Assembly (NCBI GenBank): GCA_014885115.2
Contig: WKLE02000291.1
Span: forward strand, 36,031 to 48,731
From: Asterionellopsis glacialis
Lineage: Eukaryota; Bacillariophyta; Plagiogrammaphyceae; Rhaphoneidales; Asterionellopsidaceae
Direction: 5' to 3'
DNA length: 12,701 nt
Shown: positions 1,955 to 12,701 of the stretch, in pieces
How positions within the stretch are numbered: the first letter of the stretch is position 1
Layout: each line of letters starts with the position of its first letter
Notes under the pieces: model-generated
The model's database searches: none
What the model was told of the DNA's origin: nothing
Seen by the model: the letters and a program-made list of their open reading frames with translations, nothing else
Made by a program: the position numbers and the translations under genes

Positions 1955-3587
1955 ATGAAGCTCATATCGCCTATTATCCTCCTGCTCTTATCCTCTCTTG
2001 CAAATGCAGACAGGCGTGTGAGAGGAAGGAGGAAACGCTTGAATAGAGTTTTGGAGACGGTATGTACACCGAATGTTTGTTTTTGTTGAAGCTTGCTCTA
2101 GTCTATGCCTCTAAAATTAAAATCCCATTTCTGGTTTTGCAGTACTCATATTCACAGAGCGTAGTTGTCCATGGAATTCAGAATGTAAATGCCATTGATC
2201 AAGCTGCATTAAAAGCTAAGTTTAATGACGCCGCCATCAGCCCAGATAATCAAGTTGATCATGATGTTATTGAAGACGAAGGAAATCAAGAGAAAGAGGA
2301 TGTAAGTACGAAGTCAAACAATTAGTATATTTTCTTTTGGAAATGTTTGCAATATGTTCACCTCGATGCTCACACTGTTACTCGTTATTATACCTGTTAA
2401 GATTATGGAGGACTTTCTAGAAATGCCTGACAACAGTAACCTTAACTATGACAGCTTCAGCTTCAATATCCAGCCAACAACACGTATGGGGAAGAAAGGA
2501 GGAAAGAAAGAAGGAAAGAAAGAGTCAAAATCTTTAAAAAGCGAGGGAAGTGGCAAAAAAGGGTCAAAATCTTTAAAAGGTGAGGGAAGTGGCAAGAAAG
2601 GGTCAAAATCTTTAAAAGATGAGGGAAGTCAAAAGGAAAAGTCAAAAGATACAAAGGGTGAGGGAAGTGGCAAGAAAAAGGCAACATACAAATCGACTGT
2701 GGTCCGGTCTGACAAAAAAGGCAAAAAGGGTGGTGATAAAGGAGGAAAGAAGCATGACTCGAACAAGTCGAAGGAGATTGAGAGTAGACCTGCTCAAACT
2801 CATCCACCCACCCAAGCTCCACATACACCATCTCCAACCCAAGAACCAACCGCCGCTCCAATTTCAAGTCAAACTGATTTCAGTTTTGTCGACTTCGGTA
2901 GCTATGAAATGCTTGAAATGAACAAAGACTGTGGAAGCTTTTTTTACTTCAGTGCAGACCCAGCCTTTAACGAGATTGAAAGCCTTTCCAATGGAACAGA
3001 AAATTTCACTTTTGTTGATTTTTCGTCATCTAACGAATCAGTTTGGTATGGATACGGTATTGAGAGTTTTATTGTGGGAAGGAACCCCGTTGTTTATATC
3101 GGTGGTGAAAGCCTTGATGAGATTGATATAGTCGGAATTGTTGCTGCTGCTTTTCCATCAAATGAAGAGGAGGCGTCATTTAACCCTGGAGCGAGTGAAG
3201 AGGCCAAAGTGTATTACTTTGAGGCTGATGATCATCGTATTGTTTCTTGGGAAAACCTGCCTATTGAGAGCTTAAATGTTGTTGTCAACGCACAAATACT
3301 ATTCTATTATAATGGTAAGAAGGCCTCTGCGGGTGCTCATTGTTATTCTTTGTTGGACATATAGTAGAACACTAATCAAATGCGTTTCTTCTCAATTCGT
3401 TTTAGGTGACATTGAAGTGCGATGGGGTGAGGCGTTTGGAACTGAGAATGATACACTCTCCGCCTTTTTTGTTAGTAGTTCATTCTACCAGAGTGAAGTG
3501 TTGGCTTATCAGGAATTCGGAGGATCGACGATGAATGATTGGCCGACAAATCAGTGTAGCCGCTTCATCCTTGTCAAGCCTGAATAA
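1955..3587 (+). CDS. Secreted Lys/Ser KxxK-repeat protein, silaffin/cingulin-like (four exons)
   Basis: My splice model is 1955-2059, 2143-2301, 2402-3314 and 3406-3587, with phases 0, 0 and 1, giving 452 residues. The first exon encodes a signal peptide with the hydrophobic core IILLLLSSLANA, likely cut after Ala18. A basic RRVRGRRKRL stretch follows, with an RVL tripeptide (31-33) that fits the RXL processing motif described for diatom silica proteins. Exon 2 ends in an acidic patch. Residues ~117-205 are Lys/Gly/Ser-rich and include four 13-residue repeats (130-181) of the type SKSLKGEGSGKKG, so KxxK tetrapeptides recur. A Pro/Thr-rich linker (~217-246) leads to a C-terminal domain of about 205 residues that I do not recognise. 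That domain carries Cys265 and Cys443 near its two ends, plus NGT, NFT, NES and NDT sequons. There is no C-terminal membrane segment. Signal peptide, KxxK repeats and charge pattern suggest a biosilica or cell-wall protein; the specific role is inferred. The ATG has A at -3. Confidence 0.75.
2060..2142 (+). other. Intron 1 of the KxxK-repeat gene
   Basis: An 83-base intron with donor GTATGT and a pyrimidine-rich acceptor ending TTTTGCAG. It falls between codons (phase 0). Removing it joins the signal-peptide exon in frame to the next exon; without removal the first frame meets a stop inside the intron. Confidence 0.8.
2302..2401 (+). other. Intron 2 of the KxxK-repeat gene
   Basis: A 100-base intron with a strong GTAAGT donor. 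The acceptor is the AG at 2400-2401, the one that restores the downstream frame at phase 0. The next AG, at 2419-2420, would break the frame. The acceptor context GTTAAG is weaker than in the other introns, so this is the least certain junction of the gene. Confidence 0.65.
2488..2680 (+). repeat. Coding tandem repeat, 4 x 39 bases, preceded by a homopurine run
   Basis: Units begin at 2525, 2564, 2603 and 2642, each exactly 39 bases (13 codons). Units 1-3 share the identical run TCAAAATCTTTAAAA, while unit 4 has diverged. Positions 2488-2524 are purines only (37 bases). The period is a multiple of three, so gain or loss of units would not shift the frame. Near-identity at the DNA level suggests recent expansion. 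Confidence 0.85.
3315..3405 (+). other. Intron 3 of the KxxK-repeat gene
   Basis: A 91-base phase 1 intron. The donor is G|GTAAGA, a branch-like ACTAATC lies at 3371-3377, and the acceptor is CGTTTTAG. Splicing makes a Gly codon and continues into GDIEVRWGEAFG. Read-through would instead add about 15 residues and stop at 3364. Confidence 0.85.
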
Positions 3588-4301
3588 ATTTGGCGTCTGA
3601 CCACATACTGTACATAGTCTTACGATTGTATTCTCGCGTGAGATTACGTACTACTCCAAGTTATTTGGCTAATAGTTTTTTCATCTTTATACCAGAAAAT
3701 TAGTGTATTGAATTTAAATAGTTCTGTAATACAGTATTTCAGTCAAGAATCTTTTCGCTTTGCATCTGTGCCAGGTGTGTTCTCCACGACGTAGTCTCTA
3801 AAAATCCTGCAGATCAAGGAAAAACTATTCTTAATATTTTCTGGTTCGTCTGAAAACTTATTGCGAATAATTTATACGTCCAAAATTGAAATATAGTTAA
3901 GGGACAGATGAGAAAGGTTGAACAATGCGAGGATCGTTGGGGAGAGATGTTGATGATCTTGTGATCATAAGAAAGTGACGGATCTTGTTTTTAAGTCTCT
4001 TAGGGGGGTGAAACGTAATTATGACGTGGATTTGCGTCATGTGATTATTGTCTTGCAGATGCTGCTACGACGCAAATGCTCTTTTATCGTTCTGAGCATC
4101 GTAGTCGCGCGAAGCATCACGCTAAAAACACGAAGGATATACCCGCCAACCGGGACTCAATAGGGGCATCAAAGAAGAATGGACGCTCCCCCAAACTTTT
4201 GTCACGAAGACACGCCTTCTCTGTAAAAATCTTCTCGTTCAAGGACGATAGCAACAAGAAGTATCAAAAAACGAATATTTGCTTCAAATGAAAACTCAAG
4301 A
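3588..4301. other. Intergenic region between the KxxK-repeat gene and chlH
   Basis: About 0.7 kb holding the 3' end of the upstream gene and the presumed promoter and leader of chlH. An AATAAA at 3583-3588 overlaps the upstream stop codon; whether it is used cannot be told. TGACG-type motifs are at 3976-3980 and in an inverted pair at 4021-4040. Two short overlapping frames (3975-4163 and 4076-4291) have no recognisable content and are probably chance. CpG occurs normally here. Confidence 0.55.
4021..4040. promoter_or_regulatory. Inverted TGACG (CRE/bZIP-like) pair upstream of chlH
   Basis: ATGACG (4021-4026) and CGTCAT (4035-4040) are exact complements separated by 8 bases. The left half reads TGACGTGG, a typical bZIP core. 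TGACGT-type elements are known from light/CO2/cAMP-responsive diatom promoters. The pair lies about 260-280 bases before the chlH start, and a further TGACG is at 3976. Function is inferred from position and motif only. Confidence 0.4.
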
Positions 4302-7300
4302 ATGGGAATGAGAAAGATTAGAATATTCCGGAATACAGATAAATCTCGTCGAAATCCATCAACTGTAATGCACTATCCAATTTTACTACTTGCGCTTGCT
4401 GTTGCATGTGCTAATGTTCAGAAAACATTTGGCTTTTCCATGCGTTCGAGAGAAATGTTCCATGGGCCGCCTCGAACGATTGTTGAAAGAAACGGGATTG
4501 ATTGCTTTGGCGTGCGCGGCCGTCCCTTGTTTGCAGTTGATTTAGCGTCTGAGAAATCATCGGAAAAGGATATATCCAACGAATCTTCTAAAGATAATTA
4601 TCCGAATGTAGTCTTAGTTGCTGGATTTGAATCATTTAATCGACAACTTTACAATGAAGCTGCTCAAAAATTACCCATTCATCTTCAGGTATTTGCAGAT
4701 TCTGATATCCGTACTGGTGGTGCTGTGGAAGGAGAAAATTTGGGAACTAATCCAGAGTTTGCGGAAGCAGTCAAGAATGCAGATGCTTTTATCGGAAGTC
4801 TCATTTTTGACTATGATGATGCTTTGGCCGTACAGAAACTTCTACCCCTCGTCAATGGGCCACGCCTCATATTTGAAAGTGCCACGGAACTCATGACGTT
4901 CAATAAGGTAGGATCTTTTTCGATGGAACAAACTGGAGATGGACCATCGGGACCACCACCCGCCGTGAAGGCTGTGTTGTCCAAGTTTTCCTCTGGCAAA
5001 GAAGAAGACAAAATCAGCGGATATCTCAAACTATTAAAGGTTGGTCCGAGCCTTCTCAAGTACATTCCAGGAGAAAAGGCAGGTGATCTTAGGACATGGC
5101 TTGAAGCCTATCGCTATTGGAACCAAGGTGGAGCGAGAAATGTAGGTGCCATGCTTCAACTTGTTGCTCACAAGTGTAAGGGAAAAGATATGGCAGAAAA
5201 ATTACAACTCCCAGAACTGCAGGTTACTCCGGACATCGGTTTACTTCATCCCTTGTACTCCGATGTCGATGATTACTTTATATCTCCAGCTTCCTATCTG
5301 TCGTGGAGATTGTCTGCAACCACGGCTGAGAAAGCCAAAAAATCGCGGTTCGTTCTTGCACCCTCTACAGCTCCAAGGGTTGCGATCCTACTGTTCAGGA
5401 AACATGTAATAACTGAGCAGAGATATATTATGGATTTAATCGTACAAATGGAGCAATTGGGAATTATCCCTGTGCCAATTTTCATTAATGGGGTGGAAGC
5501 TCACACTATTGTTCGTGATTGGCTAACTTCGGAGAACGAGGAAGCTGGAGTTGCACGGGGGACGATTCAACGTGACTCTACGTATCAGCCTTCAAAAGCA
5601 ATTAAAGTGGATGCAATTGTCAACACAATTGGTTTTCCTTTGGTTGGTGGACCGGCTGGATCGATGGAAGCTGGTCGAAACGTAGCTGTTGCGGAAACTT
5701 TACTTCGAAATAGTAAGTTCAGTGAGGGTGTTGTACTTTGATTGTGTCGAACTGTAGTGAGGTCCTAACCCGAATTATTTGCCGCTTCTATACATATATG
5801 CACAATAGTGAATATACCTTATTTTATTGGAAGTCCTCTTTTGTTACAGTCAATCCCCCAGTGGAAGACGAACGGTGTTCTTGGTCTTCAATCGGTAGTT
5901 CTGTACTCCTTGCCAGAGTTAGACGGAGCCAGTAAGTTTCTGTTGCGACAATATTTTGTTTCGTGTCTCTGTCAATTTTGCTGCAGCGCATTCTCACACG
6001 TATTATCATGGTTCCCCTGTGACTTTTCTTTGCGGTTCAGTTGACACTGTCGTGTTGGGTGGGCTGGTAGGAGATAAGATAGCACTGGTGCCGGAGCGAG
6101 TTCGCAAGTTAGCAAGCCGCATCCATGGGTGGGTCAAAATGAATCGAACCCCGCCAAAAGATCGGAAAATTGCAGTTTCTCTTTATGGTTTCCCTCCAAA
6201 TGTCGGTGCAGTCGGTACAGCAGCCCTCCTTGATGTACCAGGATCGCTAGACGCTTTACTAAAACGCTTGCACGAAGAAGGATATGATGTTGGCTCATTT
6301 GCGACAGACCCAGATGCTTCGGGAGAAAGTATTGTAGCAGCGTTGGCAATCTTATCTGAGGACTCTGTAATTTCTGCGGGTGCTGATCGCATGCAAGACG
6401 CAGTAGAAGCAAAAATGGAGAGGGCGAGAAACAATGATCAAACTGTCGCTTCTACATTAGCAGCGCCCGGTGGTGGACTTGGAGGAGGCGAGGTCCGTGC
6501 TATAGATGTTTCGATGGATGAACTAGAAGATGCCTTAGGAAAGTATATGACAAAAAAGGTACGACGATCTTGGTCGGAAAAGGATCGGGGTCCTGGAGTT
6601 TCGTCTAGAGGTGATCTTGTAGTCTCTGGGATACAATTAGGGAATGTTTTTGTTACGGTTCAGCCTCTCCTTGGCGTGGAAGGTGATCCAATGAGATTAT
6701 TGTTTCAACGTGATCTTACTCCTCATCCACAGTATTGTGCAGCATACGAATGGTTGAGACGCCCAGAATCAGAAGGCGGAATTGGTGCTAATGCGATTAT
6801 TCATCTTGGCATGCATGGTACGGTCGAATGGCTTCCGGGTCAACCTCTTGGAAACGATAGGCAGTCGTGGAGTGACGAACTATTGGGCGGCTTACCAAAT
6901 ATATATGTCTACGCCGCGAACAATCCCTCAGAGAGTATCCTTGCAAAACGACGAGGATATGGAACGCTTGTTAGCTATAATGTACCACCCTACGGTCGTG
7001 CTGGCTTATATCTCGATTTAGCTAATTTGAAGGATCTCGTGAGCGAATATAGAACTAGTGAGAGTTCTAGTGACGAAGATGGAGCTACACCACGTTCGGA
7101 TCTACGGGATGCCATTTGGGGATCGGTTCATCGCTGTGGTTTAATGAGCGATGTGCCTCTCCTCTCTGACCCCAGTGATGAAAATAGCGCTATTACAGAC
7201 ACAGATCTACCTACTACAATTTCGAACGATAAATTTGATACATGGGTGGGCGACCTTGCAGAATACTTAATCGAATTACAAGACAGGCTGTTTTCAAGCG

Positions 7301-8973
7301 GTCTTCACGTTCTTGGCAGTCGCCCAACTGATGATGAGCTTATGACTTACCTGCAGGCTTATTACAGTGATGAATTGTCTGAAGAAGACTGTAGAAGAGC
7401 CATTGATACGTTTCATGATTCCGAGGCTGCTGCAGAAAAAGAATCGAAGAATTTTTTGACTGATTTCTTCGCTTGGGTCGAAAAGACATTCAATGGTGTT
7501 CATGATGAGGCAGATCAGAAGCAAAGCGAAAGCATCGGTACCGACCGGGACTCTGAAGATGTCGCTCATAAGTTACACTTGATAACTGATGCATCTCATA
7601 TTGCAAACTTGCTGGATCGCACCACAGAAGAATTGGACAGCATAGTGAATGCTCTCTCCGGTGGTTATGTGCCTGCCAAACCGGGAGGGGATCTTCTTCG
7701 CGATGGGACATCCGTTCTGCCTACAGGCAGAAACATTCATGCTTTAGATCCGTATCGAATGCCATCTGCGGGCGCTTGGGCAAGGGGTCAGAAGGCAGCC
7801 GAAGAAATCATTAAGCAGCATCAACAAATGCACAGTGGAGAATATCCAGAAACTGTTGCTGTTACTCTCTGGGGCCTTGATGCTATCAAAACGCGAGGAG
7901 AGTCGGTCGCCATTGTTCTTGCTTTGGTCGGGGCTACTCCTGTCAAAGAAGGAACTGGCCGAGTCGTCCGTTTTGATCTAATTCCACTGGAGGAATTAGG
8001 AAGGCCTAGAGTTGATATTCTAGCTTCTCTGAGCGGAATTTTTCGCGATTCGTTTGCAAATATCGTTGATTTGTTGGATGATATGTTTGAACGTGCAGCA
8101 GTTACTGATGAACCTGAAGATATGAACTTTATCAAAAAGCATGCATCAGAATTGTCAAAGGATGGTGTGGAACGTCCTGCTGCTAGGCTATTTTCAAACC
8201 CTCCTGGTGACTACGGTAGTATGGTGAACGAGGTAGTTGGCTCTGGAGACTGGGACGAAGCGGAATCACTTGGAGAGACCTGGAAAAATAGGAATGTCTT
8301 CTCCTATGGAAGGAATGAGGGCGACGGAGGTGCGAATTCTGGCACTGCACGGCCTCAGGTACTTGACAAGCTCTTAGCAAGTACGGAACGAGTCGTCCAA
8401 GAAATCGACAGTGTTGAATATGGACTTACCGACATCCAAGAATACTACGCAAACACCGGGGCACTGAAAAAAGCAGCTGAGAACAGAAAGCCTGTCGACT
8501 CTAACACTGGGAAGAGGAAAAAAGTTGCTGTATCTGTAATTGAAGCATTCGGCGGGCCTCAAGGTGATTCTTCCGTGCCAGTTCGTGATGTAGAGGATGT
8601 GTTGCGACTTGAGTATAGAAGCAAGCTTCTAAATCCTAAGTGGCGGGATGCGATGCTTGAACAAGGTTCCGGTGGCGCGTACGAAGTATCTCAGCGTATG
8701 ACTGCGATGGTAGGGTGGGCAGCGACCGCTGAAGTTGACAACTTCGTTTTTGATCAAGCTGCAGAGAGATACGCACTGGACGAAGAAGTCGCCAAAAAAC
8801 TGCAAAAAGCAAACCCTGAGGCGTTTAAAAATGTTGTTAGGCGATTGTTGGAGGCAAATGGTAGAGGAATGTGGGATGCTGATGACGACGTTCTTGATAG
8901 GCTGAAAGAATTGTATAGCGACGCGGATGACATGATTGAACAGGCTTCAGCAACAATCCAGCGCACTCGTTGA
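4302..8973 (+). CDS. chlH: Magnesium chelatase subunit H (three exons, plastid-targeted)
   Basis: The large porphyrin-binding subunit of Mg-chelatase, which with ChlI and ChlD inserts Mg2+ into protoporphyrin IX, the first committed step of chlorophyll synthesis, in the plastid. Exons are 4302-5712, 5809-5931 and 6041-8973, giving 1488 residues; cyanobacterial and plant proteins are roughly 1330-1380. The extra length is mostly the leader. Residues 23-42 look like a signal peptide and FGF (43-45) like the Phe of the diatom ASAFAP-type cleavage motif. The N-terminal DUF3479 region starts near 101; the CobN/Mg-chelatase region fills the rest. Landmarks: HLGMHGTVEWLPG at 766, AANNPSESILAKRRGYG at 803, ALDPYRMPSAGAW at 1079, LWGLDAIKTRGES at 1121, SVEYGLTDIQEYYANTGAL at 1302, KLLNPKW at 1373 and LEANGRGMW at 1448. 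All are intact. The ATG at 4368 (Met23) gives a cleaner signal peptide and may be the true start (1466 residues). Near 870-1000 there are acidic, poorly conserved stretches. Confidence 0.95.
5713..5808 (+). other. Intron 1 of chlH
   Basis: A 96-base phase 1 intron: donor A|GTAAGTT, a branch-like CCTAAC at 5765-5770, and acceptor ACAATAG. Splicing creates a Met codon and reads ETLLRN-MNIPYFIGSPLLL, the conserved ChlH path across this point. Retention would add nine codons and stop at 5741. Confidence 0.92.
5932..6040 (+). other. Intron 2 of chlH
   Basis: A 109-base phase 1 intron with donor A|GTAAGTT, nearly identical to the first, and acceptor GCGGTTCAG. Splicing gives LPELDGA-IDTVVLGGLVG, an expected ChlH sequence. 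Retention reads to a stop at 6044. Confidence 0.92.
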
Positions 8974-9187
8974 ATTCTTTAGATTGGATGGCTTAGATCT
9001 AATGGTGCATACATTAAATTGCTGAAGACTCTAAACATAGAATCCATTTCTTTAAAAGATATTTTTACAATCCAATCAAAGGCGACTTGGGCACTACATG
9101 TGCATTTGTCCTTGATGCTTTCACATTGTAACAAACAACTATTTCTATTCTCACTGCTTATACTTTTTACAACTGAATTAAATGCCG
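8974..9187. other. 3' flank of chlH
   Basis: Probable 3' untranslated region and terminator zone. GATTGGAT at 8982-8989 is complementary to ATCCAATC at 9070-9077 and could form a loose stem. Only two CpGs are seen (9083 and 9186), so the CpG loss that marks the rest of the window starts about here. No gene is apparent. Confidence 0.4.
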
Positions 9188-9840
9188 CACCACCTAGGTA
9201 TTTTTTCACTTACTCTTTTTCACAGAATATGGTGATTAATACATCCAAAAGAAACAAAGTGCAACTTGGATGTGTTTTCACTGGTAATAACATATCTATA
9301 GACCCTCAAATATATTTTCTTGTACTGATCATGTGATATTCAGTAGCAACCATACATTCCTTAAAAGTACCAACACACAAGGCCATTTGTAGTGCATCTG
9401 GCAAAAATTTATAACCTACAAATAACTAATATCATGGTAACTTTTTTACATTTTTCTAATTTTATTTTATCTAACAATCTAGACTACCAGCTAGACTCCT
9501 AGTTTTCACATACAGTGTGTACTATTGTGTGTAGCTTATGTAGTATTGGGCTACAGTGCAACCACTTTCTTAATTAAAGTCATTATCAGGGTGCTAAGAT
9601 ATTCTTTAAATTGATTACATTACCCCACCTATCCCAAATAATTCAATTTGATTGTTATATACTAGCCTGATGATGTACAGGAGACTTAGCATGTAGTTGA
9701 GACATGGAATGATAGCAAATTTTCATAATAGGATAATAATTTAGTGGATCTTAGGAAAATATACATACCATATTATAATGTTCATGAATGATATATTGTG
9801 ACTATATTTATATGGAAGAGAAAATAAAGGAGAAAATTTA

Positions 9841-9985
9841 TGCTCCTCCTATCTCTTGTTTGTAAGAAGGAGTACTAAGTGTGATTGAATTAAAAAACAG
9901 GGAGAAAAGAGCTTAGAACTAGAGTATATTGTCCTCTTAACAACTCTGTTTTTCTTAACTTATCTCTAACAAACAAGATGGAGCA
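9841..9985. repeat. Imperfect inverted repeat with nested arms
   Basis: TGCTCC (9841-9846) pairs with GGAGCA (9980-9985), CTTGTTTGT (9855-9863) with ACAAACAAG (9969-9977), and AAAAACAG (9893-9900) with CTGTTTTT (9946-9953). The three pairs are nested in order with mismatched spacers, leaving a 45-base loop. This could be a decayed foldback element. Confidence 0.4.
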
Positions 9986-10871
9986 CTATAATTCAAGATT
10001 GAGCTTTATAACCTTAAAAAAGCTTTTTTGATTCAGGAAACTTTGTAATATGGAAATATTTTTTCATGTAGGAGCTCAGTGGCATTCTTTTATTGTTTTA
10101 TTGACCTCTTCACTAATTTTTATTTATCTCAAACATCTAAACAAGGCACTTCTGTTTTTCTTAAGTTTTTTGAGTATTTATTTTTACAGTGAGTGTAGTT
10201 CTTACTTCTTATCAAACCTATAGATTCCATATTTATTGCTTCAGATGAATCAGTTGCACATAAAAAACAATATTGTCATACTTCAGAATTCAGATTAACA
10301 TTGCTTTGGAACATTGCTATATTTTTTTGACCTACTTCAAGGTTATTACTGTGACATGTATAATCTTTCTCACTATGATATTTACTACCCTGTTCAACAG
10401 CAGTAGTGCCCACAAATCAACAACAACAATCATTTCTTTATACAGTAGTTCACACAAATACAAAAAAATTTGTTGATTATCTGTGAAATTTTATTACTAT
10501 GGATTGCAACATAAGGCATAACCACCATGGGGGCAGTCCTGCTGTCAAAGGAAGAACAGTTTAAAATTGATGACAATGATCTGTCACTTCAATGTAGATT
10601 CAGTTTTTGCACCTTACAACTACTTGTTCTTACAATTTGCAAGCTTTTCTTGCATGCAACAAAAACATGATTTCATATACCCTTTTATTTTTTCTTTTAC
10701 TCTCCATACTAATGTAGAAATGTAAAACCCAGCTCCTTACTATGAAAACCAAAAGTAGCTGTAATTTTGGACTTTGGGGTGTGTCCATTTATATGACTAT
10801 TTTTACCCTGAAACATATGTCTTTGTTATATTTATTTAATCCAAACATCCATAAAGCTATACTACAACAGT

Positions 10872-10894
10872 TTACAAAAGTAACACTTTTGTAA
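10872..10894. repeat. Perfect 10-bp hairpin with 3-base loop
   Basis: TTACAAAAGT (10872-10881) and ACTTTTGTAA (10885-10894) are exact complements around AAC. It is not followed by a T run on either side and sits in non-coding DNA. A chance origin in A+T-rich sequence is possible. Confidence 0.5.
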
Positions 10895-12701
10895 TAGACC
10901 AGAAAAATGATGGTAAGTGTATAAATTGAAAGCTTTACATATCCACTGTGAAAAGAATTGAAAAATTCTCTTATATATTTTAAAGCATGGTGGTTGCAAT
11001 GTTCTGATAGACAGCTCAATTATAAATCACCAAACTGGTACTGTAATTTTTTTGGTACAACACATGTGTGAAATATTATTTATATTTTCAATTTTCAATT
11101 GAATTACTTCTTGCTCCTCCATCTTTCTTAAATAATAGAAGTCTTACCATGACAGACAGTACACCATAACATGATAAGGGATGGGGATTGGGGATCTAGC
11201 AGGTTGATATTGTTTATATTGATCATTCTCTTTTATCTATAAGAATCACTTTTTTTGATTGGTGTGCCTATGCAGTTGTATCAATTAGCTTTAAAAATGG
11301 GGATCCACAATAACCAACACTTTATTAGGAATAATGGTTTCATGCAAATACATCATATCTAGTTTAAGAACTGATGCTAGAGAGCTCTTGTTCTTGCTGT
11401 TACCCCATCAGCTGATGCATACAGAAGTTTAAAAATGAAATATAACAGACTCAAAGGAAATAAAACAAACATTGTAGAAAATTGTTCTTCACAATTCTCT
11501 GCCTTGTAATTTCTTGCCTTTGTACACATGTACATTGTGTCACAATCTACTTCTGGCTAATTTAAAAACTTCAATCTTGTTGTATAAAATGTCACAGTTC
11601 ATTAATAAGAAAATCAAAAGAAAGACACCATCAAATAATTGGTGCAACTGCTATTAGTATACTATCTCCACCTTCATTTTTTTTAAAAGAAGGATTTTTG
11701 TCCAGAAATATTTTTTATGTGCCACACCTGCACTGGTACTACTATGCTCTTTTAACCTAGAATTCCTTCCAACTGTTCTACAAATCCCAACAGTCATTCT
11801 ATACAATGACAGGATTAATTACTTTGTGAATAATTTAGCCAAAAAGAATGGGCAACAATCCACAATCAACATATATCTCCATGGTTCCAGACATGACCAT
11901 GAGTTGAGGGTAATAGTTTGCCCTGCACAGCACACTGCAACAGTGGGTAACAAACGAACTTTAGTTTTTTACCATCAGCATATAAAGAGCCTAAGAGACA
12001 AGTCACAACATTAATGAATGAAATTGGATAGCAACCAAATAATCACATTGTTATGTGGACTTGGTTATTTAATTCCTCTGAGATTCTTGCAGCACAAACT
12101 AAGAATCCAACATGAATCATGAAGTTGAGACTCTTTATGAACTCTGACCATGGAGAGCTTGCCAAAGATGATTGCAAATGTATTATGAAGACTGCTATTC
12201 TCACTTTCACAGCTCATCACCTGAAAACCTAAAATTAGATGTAAAAACCAAACAAATTGGTCTTATTCATCATCAGGAACTTGTTACAACTATATAATTT
12301 ATCCTTCTATCCCATCTCTTCCAAAATACTTTCCTAGCCTATGTTGTCAGCAGGACTCAAGAAAAATGTTAGTATTGTTACAAGTTACCATTCAAAAGTT
12401 TTGTTCTAGTTTAGTGTAGTAGCTATTTGGTTGACCCAGGCTTAGATCTGGAAGTGATAGTGGTACAAAAATTAGATATTCTAATTTCTTACTGCTGCTG
12501 ATGTATTGTCTATCATCACTGCAGAGTTACAGTAATAATATGAAAGGATTATAGTACAGCAGCTACTACTACTATTATATTTATTATTTGATGTAATACA
12601 CAATCATACTTTGTCTTGGAATTGTTGTGCTCTTTATGATCTTCTCCTAGTTGATTGTATTATTTTTGAATTAGGTATTTTCTTTAATGTGATATGTTTC
12701 T

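Follow-up and report, generated by a model that had tools for sequence, protein, structure and literature searches.

How can one stretch of a diatom genome lose virtually all of its CpG dinucleotides when the DNA beside it keeps them? The question is raised by the region downstream of chlH, the gene for Mg-chelatase subunit H, in the 12,701-nucleotide stretch of Asterionellopsis glacialis DNA analysed here (the window). An earlier note on this DNA had reported a near-total absence of CpG at 9188-12701, where it expected 80 to 100, and our recount bears it out on both points: this tract, which we call the CpG desert, contains a single CpG (11955-11956) in 3514 bases, against 87.6 expected from base composition. 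The observation is real; its cause is the subject of what follows.

Extent and surroundings of the CpG desert

By a Poisson estimate, log10 of the probability of finding at most one CpG in the desert is about -36, and 2000 mononucleotide shuffles of the tract gave a mean of 87.6 CpGs and a minimum of 60. The CpG-free run from 9186 to 11955 measures 2769 bases, with the runner-up in the whole window at 203 bases. Since the sequence is still of the CpG-free type at the window end, the desert is at least 3.5 kb long; over this length its G+C content is 31.7%, falling to 27-28% in some 200-base bins, and it holds no detectable gene. Neither the desert nor its sole CpG is assigned to a strand.

The neighbouring gene, chlH (4302-8973, plus strand), was identified by Pfam matches to PF11965 and PF02514 on the open reading frames (ORFs) at 4302-5741 and 5956-8973, and has two apparent introns at about 5713-5849 and 5932-6040, with borders judged by eye. 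When ChlH encoded by 6052-8970 was used as a query, the best among the 120 matches listed was that of A. glacialis (taxid 33640), 89% identical over the full query. On the 5′ side of chlH lie a minus-strand DUF6824 gene (156-836; an ORF of 226 aa, Pfam DUF6824, E 3e-28) and then a gene at about 1955-3587, of which the 336-aa frame tested (2354-3364) had no Pfam match. Carrying a diatom chlH and these preceding genes, the window is therefore read as eukaryotic nuclear DNA, in which CG methylation is a real possibility. A 39-base tandem repeat with 4.3 copies occupies 2516-2684, in the lysine/serine-rich part of the gene at about 1955-3587, and the near-palindrome TACC(A/T)GGTA occurs five times in 1184-1574, in the intergenic DNA that separates the divergent DUF6824 gene from its neighbour. 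For this motif, which was picked after being seen, 0.07 copies are expected, and none of 200 shuffles reached five; judging by sequence, the copies are possibly a regulator binding site or a small repeat.

The CpG deficit is not merely an effect of non-coding sequence, as the earlier note had also argued: within the window, the two other intergenic stretches carry 32 CpGs against 42.7 expected (837-1954; ratio 0.75) and 34 against 26.9 (3588-4301; 1.26). The gene region at 1955-3587 has 44 against 66.4 (0.66), chlH has 223 against 242.1 (0.92), and five introns, pooled with approximate borders, have 15 against 17.9. A mild deficit thus occurs elsewhere in the window, but nothing near the 0.01 of the desert. 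G+C, too, is lower in the desert than in the two other intergenic stretches (31.7% versus 39%), a difference for which CpG loss by itself accounts only in part.

The 5′ edge of the desert is sharp. Between the chlH stop codon, which ends at 8973, and the desert lies a transition stretch (8974-9187, no strand assigned) with 32.7% G+C and two CpGs (9083 and 9186) versus 5.6 expected, probably the chlH 3′UTR. A likelihood search within 6052-12701 placed the CpG change point at 8968 (support interval 8968-9187) and the G+C change point at 8969 (8951-9014); when the tail was considered alone, an extra CpG step at 9186 was weakly supported (3.9 log units). The desert therefore starts either at the end of chlH or about 200 bases beyond it, and a start at the gene end is what a chromatin boundary there would give.

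Direction and tempo of the loss

The dinucleotide ratios of the desert (observed/expected) reveal where the CpGs went. CG stands at 0.01, TG and CA both at 1.35, and CC and GC both at 1.00; the remaining values are CT 1.08, AG 1.07, GG 1.16 and TA 0.84. The loss is thus specific to CpG, in agreement with the earlier note, and since TpG and CpA are equally raised while GpC and CpC stay at 1.00, the CpGs were removed by C-to-T changes affecting both strands. General avoidance of CpG is ruled out by the same figures, as the deficit reappears as TpG plus CpA with CC and GC unchanged. CHG trinucleotides show no depletion beyond that of their dinucleotides, with CAG and CTG at 1.01. The pairing of a CpG deficit with a matching TpG/CpA excess is found in the desert overall, but in 500-base bins the excess is patchy: it rises up to 1.64 in bins beyond 9751-10250 and is missing in 9751-10250 itself, where there are no CpGs versus 9.9 expected, yet TG is 1.01 and CA 1.00.

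We compared these values with two simple models of CpG loss. In the one-time-loss model, every CpG in random DNA of 35% G+C was turned into TpG or CpA (60 replicates), which brought TG and CA to 1.34, the G+C fraction to 0.32 and CT to 1.08, near the desert values, and misfitted CC (1.10 versus 1.00 observed) and TA (0.92 versus 0.84). In the equilibrium model, a crude one with 40 runs of 3514 bases for each setting of the CpG hypermutability k, no run retained one CpG or fewer at k = 10, 20 or 40, as compared with 8/40 at k = 100 and 26/40 at k = 200. TG/CA spanned 1.19-1.26 over the settings; at k = 100 and 200 the mean was 1.25-1.26, and one run in 40 at each reached 1.35. Slow decay to the level of the desert would, in this simple model, need roughly 100-fold CpG hypermutability, which is strained; a more strongly AT-biased mutation would be expected to reduce the required k.

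Searches for genes, viruses and transposons

The possibility that the desert derives from coding or viral sequence was considered and rejected. ORFs of at least 40 aa were listed, and those contained entirely in 9188-12701 do not exceed 76 aa; one of 105 aa (9019-9336) enters from outside. None of the six frames of 9001-12701, translated with X at stops, matched Pfam at E≤1; no Rfam family reached its gathering score and no tRNA gene was found in the window. The desert had no match in 50,697 phage records (blastn, E≤1e-5), and viral contigs, searched with chlH peptide patterns and with an exact 30-base segment taken from the desert, yielded no relative, in a collection that may omit records close to the window's own genome.

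Would the loss of CpG have hidden a coding past? As a control we took the chlH frame, introduced 0-40% random substitutions, removed every CpG and searched the product with a profile of 15 homologues; it was recovered in 15/15 cases (worst E 4e-30). This control, which stands in for a transposon but does not include insertions or deletions, points to a coding past remaining visible after loss of CpG alone, and to a desert that was either never coding or is very old.

Transposon sequence, expected of a CG-methylated transposable element (TE) island in a diatom, was not found by six-frame Pfam or repeat searches, to which a very ancient remnant, or one lacking coding sequence, would be invisible. 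There are no terminal-repeat pairs and no tandem arrays inside the desert. A recognisable transposon with terminal repeats was discarded as a candidate, the longest pairs in 8900-12701 being short and imperfect (direct, 26 nt at 73%; inverted, 25 nt at 76%). The only sequence found to be common to the desert and the CpG-bearing DNA 5′ of it is an inverted pair whose 36-nt arms are 78% complementary, at 1189-1224 in CpG-bearing intergenic DNA and 12354-12389 in the desert, which may be chance or the trace of a shared repeat.

Long-kept CG methylation and its rivals

Our favoured reading, which we hold with modest confidence as the probable one, is that the desert is non-coding nuclear DNA kept CG-methylated until deamination of 5-methylcytosine (5mC) exhausted its CpGs. 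Immediately 3′ of chlH there would be an island of silent chromatin, methylated at CG, that contains the desert; maintenance methylation, for which DNMT5 would be the main candidate enzyme in diatoms, would have been recopied at every division over a very long time; and 5mCpG would have deaminated to TpG, or to CpA on the opposite strand, with no selection retaining CpG. The analysis itself establishes that CpG was lost, that the loss is confined to this dinucleotide and even on the two strands, and that it sets in at the end of chlH or no more than about 200 bases past it. CpG persists in the two remaining intergenic stretches, as expected if methylation were local.

Such islands have a precedent in diatoms. 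The available text of PMC9998398 describes diatom 5mC as mostly CG and confined to isolated TE islands, DNMT5-dependent in Phaeodactylum tricornutum; Asterionellopsis is not one of the four diatoms for which that text gives reported 5mC, and the genus goes unmentioned in the main text. The islands of P. tricornutum resemble the desert in being local and CG-specific in a genome otherwise bearing CpG, and differ in that they are defined by measured 5mC over transposons, whereas the desert is known from sequence alone, carries no recognisable transposon and has almost no CpG left (PMC9998398, as available). Methylated vertebrate DNA likewise loses CpG through 5mCpG deamination to TpG/CpA. Its degree is different: human CpG is about five-fold below expectation, so that about one fifth is retained (PMC13297926, in its accessible part), whereas the desert, a single measured stretch, retains about one hundredth. 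The earlier note had offered long-term CG methylation and deamination as the cause; the equal gains of TpG and CpA and the methylated islands of other diatoms speak for that proposal, and the extreme degree strains it. Its description of the desert as a permanently silenced domain is plausible, with the methylation putative. Several observations count against long-kept methylation: the degree, with its roughly 100-fold hypermutability in the model; the missing product signature in bin 9751-10250; the lack of a transposon remnant marking the usual target of methylation; the part of the low G+C that CpG loss leaves unexplained; and the departure of CC and TA from the one-time-loss values.

A faster route would be a burst akin to repeat-induced point mutation (RIP), in which a repeated element is hit by active CpG-directed mutation, perhaps via a DNMT4 related to fungal DIM2/RID, and quickly loses all of its CpGs. 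The TG/CA of the one-time-loss model (1.34) fits the observed 1.35 better than the equilibrium values do, and such a burst has no need of hypermutability on the order of 100-fold; however, the better fit carries little weight because TG in the ordinary DNA of this window is already 1.04-1.18. A freshly mutated autonomous transposon should moreover retain recognisable domains, given that the mutated chlH frame was recovered in all cases, and six-frame searches of the desert against Pfam found none. RIP works on duplicated sequences; the desert resembles its fungal targets in local C-to-T loss on both strands, yet no duplication of it was found within the window and neither terminal-repeat pair nor tandem array lies inside it, although a partner could sit past the window end. 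To our knowledge, RIP has not been demonstrated in diatoms. Transcripts related to DNMT4 are present in 8 pennate and 23 centric species out of 60 diatoms, and the diatom DNMT4 enzymes may group with RID, at moderate support, according to the available text of PMC9998398. All told, we regard a RIP-like burst as unlikely, but as a rival to be taken seriously.

Rather unlikely, too, is that the last 3.5 kb come from a different organism or molecule, one subject to its own mutational regime, and were joined to chlH in assembly, a kind of origin that the earlier note had also allowed for. Composition does shift within about 200 bases, and the desert shares with the 5′ part just the one 36-nt inverted pair, possibly by chance. 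Yet the G+C change point falls on the chlH stop codon, where a shift from coding to intergenic composition is expected anyway, and this coincidence with the gene end argues mildly against a random join; two CpGs still follow chlH, at 9083 and 9186. The desert matched no phage record at blastn sensitivity, and 3.5 kb of AT-rich DNA without ORFs above 76 aa is untypical of prokaryotes. Human-type DNA, which retains roughly a fifth of the CpGs expected (PMC13297926, same part), would not be expected to show one in 3514 bases.

The desert might instead be an AT-rich centromere in which CG methylation of the chromatin is maintained, a reading that we consider very improbable. It has no detectable gene or strong repeat, and its low G+C (31.7% across a minimum of 3.5 kb, down to 27-28% in 200-base bins) is of the kind sought in centromeres; any old AT-rich intergenic DNA would, however, appear alike, and nothing here indicates one such tract per chromosome. 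The low-G+C criterion for centromeres reportedly originates with Diner et al. 2017. Low G+C in 100-base windows was used for placing P. tricornutum centromeres (PMC9266582, available text), and in Cryptococcus deuterogattii the identity of centromeres is tied to 5mC that depends on DNMT5 (PMC13297926, accessible part). A related thought, unlikely in our view, is that the desert is unique non-transposon chromatin, possibly centromeric, in which faithful CG methylation erased its own substrate and silence is now held by something else.

Judging by titles and abstract openings, we found no description of intergenic diatom DNA stripped of nearly all its CpG, which does not prove that none is in print. 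Should long-kept CG methylation be the true cause, CpG loss can go well past the human level, and a sharp chromatin boundary would be suspected right after a gene of chlorophyll synthesis, where the desert begins. Finally, were such a desert what diatom CG methylation ultimately leads to, CpG-free stretches in diatom assemblies that come without methylation data could be used as a fossil record of where heterochromatin is permanent.
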